Shown piece after piece: positions 52,268 to 55,678 of a stretch of DNA of 64,000 bases. The stretch spans positions 124,001 through 188,000 of the forward strand of contig NZ_VSRY01000152.1 in the NCBI RefSeq assembly GCF_008271805.1, in the 5' to 3' direction. Position 1 is the stretch's first letter. The number at the start of each line of letters is the position of its first letter. The position numbers were made by a program, and so were the translations under genes. Under the pieces are notes generated by a model. The model was not told the origin of the DNA. It ran no database searches and saw nothing but the letters and a program-made list of their open reading frames with translations. The DNA is from Streptomyces sp. TRM49041. Lineage in GTDB: Bacteria > Actinomycetota > Actinomycetes > Streptomycetales > Streptomycetaceae.

Positions 52268-52567
52268 TCAGGTGTTACTGGTGCCCCAGTCGTCCTCGCC
52301 GGCCTGGCCGCGGCCCCGCAGCGAGCGGACCCGCTCGGCGACCGACTCGGGCATCCGGTCCCCGACCCTGTCGCTCACCACCCGGTACGCGCGGCCGGCC
52401 ACCCCCCGGCCGGTCTGCGCGGCCGACTCGGCGGCGTTGCGCACGGCGGGGTTCTCCGAGAGCTCGCGTGCGGACTTCCGCAGCTGTTCGTACCGCTCGC
52501 GCCCGGCCCGGGTCCCGAGGACGTACCCGACGGCCAGTCCAACGACGAACGTGAGCTTGTACCGCAT
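52268..52567 (-). CDS. YtxH-like small membrane-anchored protein
   Basis: A 99-aa protein with an N-terminal helix carrying the YtxH-like pattern KLTFVVGLAVGYVLGTRAGRERYEQLRKSA, then an amphipathic helical region (RNAAESAAQTGRGVAGRAYRVV) and an acidic tail. Such proteins are abundant in actinobacteria and of unknown function. ATG 52567 follows an AAGGG site. Confidence 0.75.
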   Translation of the reverse strand: MRYKLTFVVGLAVGYVLGTRAGRERYEQLRKSARELSENPAVRNAAESAAQTGRGVAGRAYRVVSDRVGDRMPESVAERVRSLRGRGQAGEDDWGTSNT

Positions 52568-52748: not shown

Positions 52749-52821
52749 TCCCCTGTAGCTCAATTGGCAGAGCAGCCGGCTGTTAACCGGCAGGTTACTG
52801 GTTCGAGTCCAGTCGGGGGAG
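52749..52821 (+). tRNA. tRNA-Asn (GTT), copy 1
   Basis: 73 nt fold as a cloverleaf: acceptor TCCCCTG with CGGGGGA, anticodon stem GCCGG/CCGGC around CTGTTAA (anticodon GTT) and T-arm ACTGG-TTCGAGT-CCAGT. The discriminator is G. CCA is not encoded. Confidence 0.97.
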
Positions 52822-52826
52822 CGCGA

Positions 52827-52899
52827 TCCCCTGTAGCTCAATTGGCAGAGCATTCGGCTGTTAACCGGAGGGTTGCTGGTTCGAGTCCAGCCGGGGGAG
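52827..52899 (+). tRNA. tRNA-Asn (GTT), copy 2
   Basis: 73 nt, 5 bp after the first copy, with the same acceptor stem and D-arm. The anticodon stem differs (TTCGG/CCGGA with a T-G wobble) and the T-stem is GCTGG/CCAGC, so the two genes are not identical. Confidence 0.97.
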
Positions 52900-52907
52900 C
52901 GGTGACG

Positions 52908-52933
52908 AGAGAGGACCCTCCCGGGTCCTCTCT
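52908..52933 (+). terminator. Terminator of the tRNA-Asn pair
   Basis: An 11-bp stem (52908-52918 with 52923-52933) with a 4-nt loop is followed by TTCGTTTTCT, a canonical Rho-independent terminator. Confidence 0.9.
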
Positions 52934-53076
52934 TTCGTTTTCTCGGCTGATCCGGAACCGTGCGGGGGCGGCGGCAGTCTTCAACGGTGTGCGTTGCCGA
53001 CCATCCGGAGCAGGAGATCGTATGAGCGGCTATGCTGCGGCAGACGGCGCGCACAAATGTGCGCGACGCACCGCAC

Positions 53077-53150
53077 GGGGCGGTAGCTCAGCCGGTTAGA
53101 GCAGCGGACTCATAATCCGTCGGCCGTGGGTTCGAGTCCCACCCGCCCCA
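53077..53150 (+). tRNA. tRNA with CAT anticodon (elongator Met or Ile2)
   Basis: 74 nt: acceptor GGGGCGG with CCGCCCC, anticodon stem GCGGA/TCCGT around CTCATAA, T-arm GTGGG-TTCGAGT-CCCAC, discriminator A. It lacks the unpaired first acceptor position of initiator tRNA, so it is elongator Met or the lysidine-modified Ile2. Sequence alone does not let me choose. Confidence 0.95.
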
Positions 53151-53199
53151 CCGTCTGCCAGTCGAGCAGAAACCTTCTTACCTGCAGATACGCAGGTCT

Positions 53200-54183: not shown

Positions 54184-54367
54184 CCGGCGTTTCCGGCCAG
54201 TGGGACAGAGCAGGGGTGCGCTGCTCTTCGTGGATGACACCTGGATCGGGGGCAGGAACCGCCTACGTTGTCCTACGGAATGTCTATTCATCAATAAGAG
54301 TGATGCGAATTCAGATTTTCGGCGCCTTCGCACAAGAATGACGAATCCCACGTCGTAGGAGGTGCTG

Positions 54368-55678
54368 TTGTCCCGCTCCGTCACCCCGACCGGTCCGTCC
54401 CACATGACGACGCTCGGATACGCCCTGTTCGCCACGCGATGGCTCCAGGCGCCGCTGTACTTCGGCCTCGTGGCCGCCCAGGGGGTATACGTCTACAAGT
54501 TCTTCAACGAGCTCTGGAGACTCATCGCGCACGTCCTGAGCGGCCAGGCCGACGAGACGCACGTCATGCTGGCCGTGCTCAAACTGGTGGACGTGGTGAT
54601 GATCGCCAACCTGCTGATCATGGTGATCGTCGGCGGGTACGAGACGTTCGTCTCGCGCATCGGTCTGCAGGGCCACCGCGACCAGCCGGAGTGGCTGTCG
54701 CACGTCAACTCCAACGTGCTGAAGGTGAAGCTGGCCACCGCCATCGTCGGGATCTCGTCGGTGCACCTGCTCCAGATGTTCGTCGACGTGCACCACACGC
54801 CCGAGCACGACCTGCTGTGGGGCACGGTGATCCACATGGCGTTCATCCTCTCGGCGGCGATCCTGGCGTACATGTCCGGGCCCATGGCGCCGCACGGGGC
54901 GCGGGCGTCGCACGGGGCGAAGGCCGGCGGTGACGCGGAGGGCGGCTCGGTGACGGGCGATGCGTCGGTGCGTCGGGGCCCGGCGCCGGATGACGCGGTG
55001 ACGGGCGACGCGGTGATGCGTGACGCGGTGGCCGTCGTGCCGCGGCAGGGGACGGCCTGGCGGGTCACCGCCGGGACGGAGGAGCGGATCGCGGCGGCCG
55101 GGTTCCCCGGGCGCAAACAGCTGGAGGCGTTCGACACCGGCCATCTGCGCGCCCCGGACCCGCTGGTCATCGACCGGCTGGGCCGGCTCGACTTCGTCGC
55201 GAGCCACGCCAACGTGGTGTTCCTCGGCGGCCCCGGCACCGGCAAGACGCATCTGGCCGCCGCGCTCGGCGTACGGGCCTGCGAGGCAGGGCACCGGGTG
55301 CTGTTCGCCACGGCCCTCGAGTGGGGCACCCGGCTGCGCCGCGCCCAGGCCGATGGACGGCTGGCCGACGAGCTGGCCTCGCTCGACGCGTACCCGCTGC
55401 TCATCGTGGACGAGCTCGGCTACGTGCCGCTCGACAAGGAGGCCGCCAACCTCTTCTTCCAGCTGGTCGCGCACCGCTATGAGCGCGCCTCGCTGATCGT
55501 CACCAGTGACCGGCCCTTCGGGCGGTGGGCCGAGGTGTTCGGCGACGGCGACACCGCGTCCGCCACCGTGGACCGGCTGGTCCACCACGCCGACGTCGTC
55601 ACCCTGGAGGGCGAGAGCTACCGCACCCGGGGGCTGGAGACCGCGGCGGTCGCGGGATGGGCCGGACCGGGCGCCTGA
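54368..55678 (+). CDS. UPF0114 membrane domain fused to an IstB-like ATPase
   Basis: A 436-aa single frame with two unrelated halves. Residues 20-175 match UPF0114 (YqhA): YALFATRWLQAPLYFGLVAAQGVYVYKFFNELW, VDVVMIANLLIMVIVGGYETFVS and the ISSVHLLQMFVDVHH segment, with about four membrane helices. A linker of about 50 residues contains DAV-x-x repeats. Residues 230-436 are an IS21 IstB/DnaC-type AAA ATPase with Walker A FLGGPGTGKTHLA (near 286) and Walker B LLIVDELGYVPLDKEAANLFFQL. TTG 54368 is chosen because AGGAGG ends 5 nt upstream; GTG 54362 and ATG 54404 are alternatives. No istA transposase is present. The fusion may be a domesticated transposition ATPase tethered to the membrane. Confidence 0.82.
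   Translation: MSRSVTPTGPSHMTTLGYALFATRWLQAPLYFGLVAAQGVYVYKFFNELWRLIAHVLSGQADETHVMLAVLKLVDVVMIANLLIMVIVGGYETFVSRIGLQGHRDQPEWLSHVNSNVLKVKLATAIVGISSVHLLQMFVDVHHTPEHDLLWGTVIHMAFILSAAILAYMSGPMAPHGARASHGAKAGGDAEGGSVTGDASVRRGPAPDDAVTGDAVMRDAVAVVPRQGTAWRVTAGTEERIAAAGFPGRKQLEAFDTGHLRAPDPLVIDRLGRLDFVASHANVVFLGGPGTGKTHLAAALGVRACEAGHRVLFATALEWGTRLRRAQADGRLADELASLDAYPLLIVDELGYVPLDKEAANLFFQLVAHRYERASLIVTSDRPFGRWAEVFGDGDTASATVDRLVHHADVVTLEGESYRTRGLETAAVAGWAGPGA

Follow-up and report, generated by a model that had tools for sequence, protein, structure and literature searches.

Results

Architecture of the fusion gene

The window, i.e. the whole stretch of 64,000 nucleotides of Streptomyces DNA analysed here, carries an open frame (54368..55678; it and its parts and leader described below lie on the forward strand) that starts with TTG, ends with TGA and encodes 436 amino acids, a UPF0114 domain followed by an IstB-type AAA+ ATPase. 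The ribosome-binding site AGGAGG (54357..54362) is located 5 nt before the TTG, and GGAGG, a GTG or TTG start and TCCCGCTCC are similarly arranged in several close relatives, both of which support TTG 54368 as the start codon. An alternative in-frame ATG lies at 54404, and residues of the fusion are counted from there.

The UPF0114 domain (54425..54781, residues 8-126) was recognised by Pfam with an E value of 2.6e-37 and, over residues 6-157, by the NCBIfam model TIGR00645 (186.3 bits; cut-off 144.4). The ATPase half matched Pfam IstB_IS21 (residues 205-409, E 1.9e-59) and NCBIfam IS21_help_AAA (231.8 bits; cut-off 200), so that all four scores are above the respective cut-offs. AlphaFold2, run with a 49-sequence alignment, predicts four long helices (residues 2-45, 51-85, 103-127 and 134-157; 54407..54874) with pLDDT mostly 72-87 which, judged also by their loop charges, would form a membrane bundle. 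They are followed by a variable linker of low confidence (residues 162-220, 54887..55063; pLDDT below 50 for nearly all positions) and by the ATPase core (residues 229-409, 55088..55630), mostly at 94-98. As the pTM of the whole model is 0.51, the relative placing of the two halves is not fixed by it. GC content at third codon positions is 0.96 in the UPF0114 part, 0.92 in the linker and 0.95 in the ATPase part. An earlier note on this DNA had described one uninterrupted frame that joins a four-helix UPF0114 domain to an IstB/DnaC-like ATPase with retained codon bias, and this description was borne out.

Between positions 52500 and 56500, Rfam returned only tRNAs above the gathering score. An internal start splitting the product was considered and discarded: a linker start with a Shine-Dalgarno-like word is present in only 9 of the 65 fused loci, including the window (residue 182), and is therefore not conserved.

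The membrane half

Loop 2 of the UPF0114 domain contains on average 4.0 lysine plus arginine residues, loops 1 and 3 only 0.8 and 0.6. Based on this distribution, both ends of the domain are predicted to lie inside and the ATPase side is thus predicted to be cytosolic. The first helix remained below the hydrophobicity threshold used. Among the 112 distinct fused proteins, 92 equal the window at all 26 invariant UPF0114 positions, which were defined from a 23-sequence alignment that includes the window by construction; the remaining proteins deviate at position 74 (17), 155 (3) or 147 (1). Comparison of the UPF0114 fold with the PDB by Foldseek gave no match at E 0.001. The best VIA-align Z score was 9.7, a range common for helical bundles, and the rows comprised BAR domains, Orai, NINJ and VTC, all below 10.

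We found no known activity for UPF0114. Overexpression of E. coli yqhA is listed among 20 genes permitting growth in 6 mM peroxide in the part of PMC8228696 consulted, and a passage of PMC10991953 describes a YqhA W14L exchange that arose during adaptation to bio-oil inhibitors. The tryptophan matching W14 seems to be the conserved W13 of the fusion. The peroxide and bio-oil findings, made on YqhA, serve as leads only.

The ATPase half in comparison with IstB

Residue conservation was counted in 112 distinct fused proteins, to which 145 rows had been reduced. K281 and T282 of Walker A (GGPGTGKT, residues 275-282, 55226..55249), D336 of Walker B (LLIVDE, residues 332-337, 55397..55414), the presumed Arg finger R391 in DRLxHH (55574..55576; the name is our assignment) and the sensor II residue R407 (55622..55624) are present in 112/112 proteins, Tyr340 in 110 and the Walker B residue E337 in 109. 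The sensor I position (D369, 55508..55510) is Asp in 99 proteins, the window among them, and Asn in 10. In IS5376 IstB, the active site described in the consulted part of PMC11208146 comprises Walker B E167, Tyr170, sensor I Asn199 and sensor II Arg237; D369 and R407 of the fusion correspond to the last two, and a passage of PMC8213410 likewise discusses how important the sensor I contact is. The intact Walker motifs of the earlier note were thus confirmed, though the altered sensor I (Asp for Asn) went unmentioned there.

Three relatives (L063 of G044, L064 of G019, and L279) carry Ala in place of the Walker B Glu (E337A) and keep the Walker A Lys, the presumed Arg finger and sensor II. These proteins are candidates for natural hydrolysis-dead variants. 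Hydrolysis therefore seems dispensable in at least that lineage, where ATP binding alone may suffice.

In fold comparisons of the ATPase part, the IstB structures 8q3w, 8q4d and 5bq5 rank first, as they do by sequence. The match to IS5376 IstB begins at chain residue 62. Thus, the N-terminal domain is missing from the fusion, and the "almost complete" IstB of the earlier note is correct in this sense; where IstB has this domain, the fusion has the linker and UPF0114. As far as the consulted text of PMC11208146 goes, the first 65 residues of IS5376 IstB dimerise the protein, raise its DNA affinity (to 40 nM, the ATPase module having 1.5 uM) and keep the ATPase in an inactive state, and nucleotide-controlled assembly needs both the N-terminal domain and the AAA+ part.

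A further difference concerns residues 304-330 (55313..55393), a two-helix insert placed after beta2 and before Walker B, which we assign as the DNA-contacting initiator-specific motif. Its net charge averages −1.58 in the 112 fused proteins (−1 in the window) and +2.22 in 18 IstB proteins, a contrast that sets one clade against another and does not count independent events. A charge of +1 or more was found in 12/112 fused proteins versus 18/18 IstB; of more distant IstB, 10/11 are at +2 or +3 and one is at −1. The turn from a basic to an on average acidic insert points away from DNA as the substrate. New basic residues in the fusion ATPase are located at positions 258, 261, 315 and 361.

In the window's genome, a 174-contig draft, no IS21 transposase scored above the cut-off and nine weak matches lay below it, which agrees with the absence of a nearby transposase stated earlier. 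The sole IstB-type match at E 0.001 in this genome was the fusion itself (29 of 33 candidates scored).

Distribution of the fusion

UPF0114 was found in 58 of 392 genus genomes with 59 matches in total. Fifty-two of these, including the window, are fused in frame to the ATPase, four are unfused (G241, G300, G012 and the second copy of G367) and three are unreadable: G081 and G032 are cut off by the end of a contig, and in G325 the linker is interrupted by a run of N, past which an ATPase match follows in another frame. In this 392-genome sample, each genome with a fusion has one fused copy. In G367, a fused UPF0114 occurs alongside an unfused one (L077, L108), and the unfused copy is 77% identical. 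A sample of the order added 14 new genus loci, 13 fused and one unfused (G463), as well as two unfused UPF0114 loci from another family. Altogether, of 68 UPF0114 loci in the fused clade, 65 continue into the ATPase without leaving the open frame, and the remaining three are the two contig ends and the N run; 65/68 is the informative count, since the 65 frames were taken from stop to stop and their lack of stops partly reflects this choice. When GTDB species genomes were scanned with peptides from the window protein, 145 relatives were obtained. The best 80 by score, a ranking that favours fused loci and overlaps the genus sample, are all titled Streptomyces and all fused (80/80).

Outside the genus, no UPF0114-ATPase fusion was detected in a class sample (394 genomes) or a phylum sample (296 genomes), both of which include some genus members and cover the window's phylum only. 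UPF0114 frames from outside the genus in these samples are either too short for the ATPase or long without it. The long frames of G552, G521, G499 and G784 contain no IstB homologue, and those of G1096, G941 and G521 no Walker A-like pattern. One of the loci, L170 of G784, is a single frame of 405 residues with two tandem UPF0114 domains. UPF0114 as such is widespread and occurs in 4 of 14 control genomes, E. coli and Caulobacter among them.

Common origin and selection

In a tree with 28 IstB proteins, the 65 fused ATPases form one clade (support 0.923) adjoining a clade of actinobacterial IS21 IstB; the IS21 IstB proteins nearest to the window ATPase are 58-62% identical to it. The fused UPF0114 domains together with the three unreadable loci likewise form one clade, with a support of 0.853 at the DNA level and a modest 0.671 at the protein level, and its sister is unfused Streptomyces UPF0114. 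Unfused members of this tree were G367 (second copy), G241, G300, G463, G394, G396, G499 and G521, and G012, G552 and G784 were left out by a motif rule. UPF0114 and ATPase distances correlate with r 0.891, the best of 999 permutations reaching 0.328.

The median dN/dS is 0.09 for UPF0114, 0.83 for the linker and 0.40 for the ATPase, calculated from those 2072 of 2080 pairs that have an ATPase dS below 1 and by the Nei-Gojobori method, which ignores base-composition bias. In ten chosen close pairs, the ATPase values range from 0.07 to 0.46. By these measures the UPF0114 half is extremely conserved, and the ATPase is under clearly weaker purifying selection. In an alignment of 57 proteins, the linker stretch corresponding to residues 157-213 is between 24 and 114 residues long (eight of the 65 fused loci were left out by a motif rule). 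Despite this variable length, the frame is kept in all 65 fused-clade loci with complete sequence.

Genomic sites

A gene for an XPB repair helicase, named by NCBIfam, lies upstream on the opposite strand in 48 of 65 fused loci. This region was inspected in 13 genomes, ten without UPF0114 and three with the fusion elsewhere, the window's included. XPB and a UvrD/HelR-like helicase are present in 13/13 of these stretches and a match to a Helicase_C_3/WYL protein, partial in some, in 12/13; neither half of the fusion occurs in any of them. In the window's genome, the fusion is located between tRNA-Asn/tRNA-Met genes and an OsmC-like gene. The two tRNA-Asn and one tRNA-Met upstream of it (52749-53152) are a possible landing site. 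An OsmC or MarR side is common to four other fused loci (G210, G251, G483 and G006), and a third site is common to three (G163, G247 and G093). The other nine fused loci differ in site, save G187 and G094, which have two common neighbours, and some short contigs. The occurrence at several different sites argues that the gene changed place as a unit, often with its leader. The neighbouring genes gave no lead to a function: the sites differ, and there is no steady neighbour beyond the XPB block. Terminal inverted repeats around the unit were sought in five loci, and nothing longer than 9 bases was found.

This conserved 5' leader (54268..54345), around TCTATTCAT...GAATTCAGAT, accompanies many fused copies at different genomic sites (loci L051-L165). 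Many copies contain a short, imperfectly matched inverted repeat in which some changes are paired, as counted in 21 distinct sequences that were picked by a pattern and thus lean towards a hairpin. When up to 3 mismatches are allowed, the window's genome has a single copy of the leader, and the leader is not evident in the upstream stretches inspected in G187 and G094.

Carriage of the fusion on plasmids was examined and dismissed, as none of the best 5000 plasmid records covers 80% of it. UPF0114 alone matches in 107 plasmid records (best identity 61.6%) and in eight phage records. Caulobacter phages CcrColossus and CcrPW have UPF0114 genes that are about 32-34% identical. For Pseudomonas putida S12, Table 3 of PMC5658596, of which a part was consulted, gives "Membrane protein (UPF0114 family) - cation transporter" as the location of one copy of ISS12, an element of the IS21 family. 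This shows how such a fusion could begin.

Discussion

The fusion is a real and conserved joining of two known families that arose once and in which the ATPase has changed; the architecture is new, its components are known. At the level of sequence comparison, our data establish that in the Streptomyces lineage an IS21-type istB lost its N-terminal domain and was attached in frame behind a UPF0114/YqhA gene, with a flexible linker between the two, and that the resulting protein has since been passed on and moved as one unit under purifying selection. The suggestion of a recent accidental fusion without function, or of an assembly error, has next to no probability left. The assembly of the window is a draft in 174 contigs, but the same fusion recurs in 64 other genus genomes and in 80 named records, two overlapping sets that include records of complete genomes. 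It is thus not unique to this assembly, and an accidental or assembly-made product is ruled out.

The fusion shares with IS21 IstB (IS5376; PDB 8q3w, 8q4d and 5bq5) the AAA+ fold, Walker A and B, the Arg finger and sensor II. It differs in the absence of the N-terminal dimerisation and DNA-contacting domain, assigned to the first 65 residues in the consulted part of PMC11208146, in an insert that is no longer basic on average and in a sensor I that is mostly Asp. Moreover, it does not seem to be encoded in an IS21 element with IstA, as no IS21 transposase passes the cut-off in the window's genome, it is fused to a membrane domain, and it occurs as one fused copy per genome in the 392-genome sample. 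From the side of UPF0114 (YqhA, TIGR00645), the fusion has the full domain above the cut-offs with largely kept invariant positions; in the class and phylum samples, UPF0114 from outside the genus is never joined to this ATPase. By fold, the ATPase belongs to the same AAA+ group as the initiator-type proteins DnaC, DnaI and DnaA, but the fusion has no Pfam helicase or origin-binding domain outside its AAA+ part. FtsH is a membrane-anchored AAA+ machine. The fusion resembles it in combining membrane helices with a cytosolic AAA+ domain, and FtsH is among the lower-ranked fold matches of the AAA+ part. In contrast to FtsH, there is no metalloprotease domain (Pfam shows none up to E 1), the nearest AAA+ proteins are IstB, DnaC and DnaA, and the membrane part is UPF0114.

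The idea of a domesticated transposition ATPase tethered to the membrane, put forward in the earlier note, is well supported by the single origin, the lack of an IS21 transposase above the cut-off, the kept frame and catalytic residues, the purifying selection and the predicted cytosolic location of the ATPase side. We give about an even chance to the explanation that this ATPase now serves a membrane protein, probably as a cytosolic, ATP-switched regulatory or assembly module for UPF0114. UPF0114 would reside in the membrane and have its C terminus on the inner side. The AAA+ domains tethered to it would bind ATP and assemble with one another by way of the kept Arg finger and sensor II, residues whose retention argues for ATP-dependent contacts between subunits. 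Such ATP-controlled association, reset by hydrolysis, might then open, close or cluster the UPF0114 assembly. In the simplest reading, the DNA-templating and dimerising N-terminal domain would have been swapped for a membrane domain, and DNA is probably no longer the substrate of the ATPase. By analogy with E. coli YqhA only, the likely physiological output would be tolerance to membrane or chemical stress.

The remodelling of DNA or protein proposed earlier fared unequally. A role on DNA is unlikely given the lost N-terminal domain and the changed insert charge. In a role on proteins, the AAA+ domain would act not on UPF0114 itself but, in the manner of membrane-anchored AAA+ machines, on another protein as its client, which UPF0114 would bring along or which would be brought to it. 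A tether combined with an AAA+ domain that keeps its catalytic residues would suit such a remodeller and the long, variable linker would give it reach, but no client-binding feature was identified and the neighbour genes, which differ between sites, indicate no partner; we consider it rather improbable. That the fusion retains IstB-like bending of DNA and acts as a membrane-tethered DNA-binding, nucleoid or replication factor is distinctly less probable. The IstB/DnaC/DnaA fold, the XPB gene adjoining 48 of 65 fused loci and some gained basic residues in the ATPase speak in its favour, but the N-terminal DNA and dimerisation domain has been lost, the insert charge has shifted from basic to acidic on average, the XPB block also occurs in genomes or stretches that lack the fusion, and other sites can harbour the fusion as well.

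The weaker constraint on the ATPase (dN/dS 0.40 compared to 0.09 for UPF0114) could also mean that UPF0114 does all the work and that the ATPase is a near-passive tail needed for folding, oligomerisation or ATP binding only. The exchange of the Walker B Glu for Ala in 3/112 proteins and the persistence of unfused UPF0114 in G241, G300 and G463, and beside the fused copy in G367, are compatible with this. However, K281, T282, D336, R391 and R407 are unchanged in 112/112 proteins and no complete fused-clade locus has lost the frame (65/65 keep it), and we regard a passive tail as improbable, slightly more so than action on a separate client.

In the open-access literature, we found no paper with both UPF0114 and IstB, nothing on TIGR00645 and nothing that brings IstB together with Streptomyces, transmembrane and fusion protein. 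A search of this literature for IstB, Streptomyces and "domesticated" retrieved only a survey of Tn7 target selectors. As the fusion passes the IS21_help_AAA equivalog cut-off, automatic annotation may label it as an IS21 helper ATPase and thereby hide it.

Returning to the ATP-switched module for UPF0114, a broader interpretation can be offered tentatively, although we think it less likely than its alternatives taken together. An insertion sequence ATPase would have been exapted from DNA into an ATP-dependent switch of a membrane protein, DNA-templated assembly would have given way to membrane-templated assembly, and UPF0114 proteins would generally be oligomeric membrane devices open to such control. 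If this exaptation is true, the three relatives with a Walker B Glu-to-Ala exchange would be natural ATP-locked variants. The fusion presents a case of a transposon helper ATPase domesticated after the loss of its DNA-handling parts. By keeping UPF0114 durably joined, in nature, to an ATPase that is well understood, it provides a "Rosetta stone" clue to UPF0114, whose function becomes testable via the known ATPase residues.
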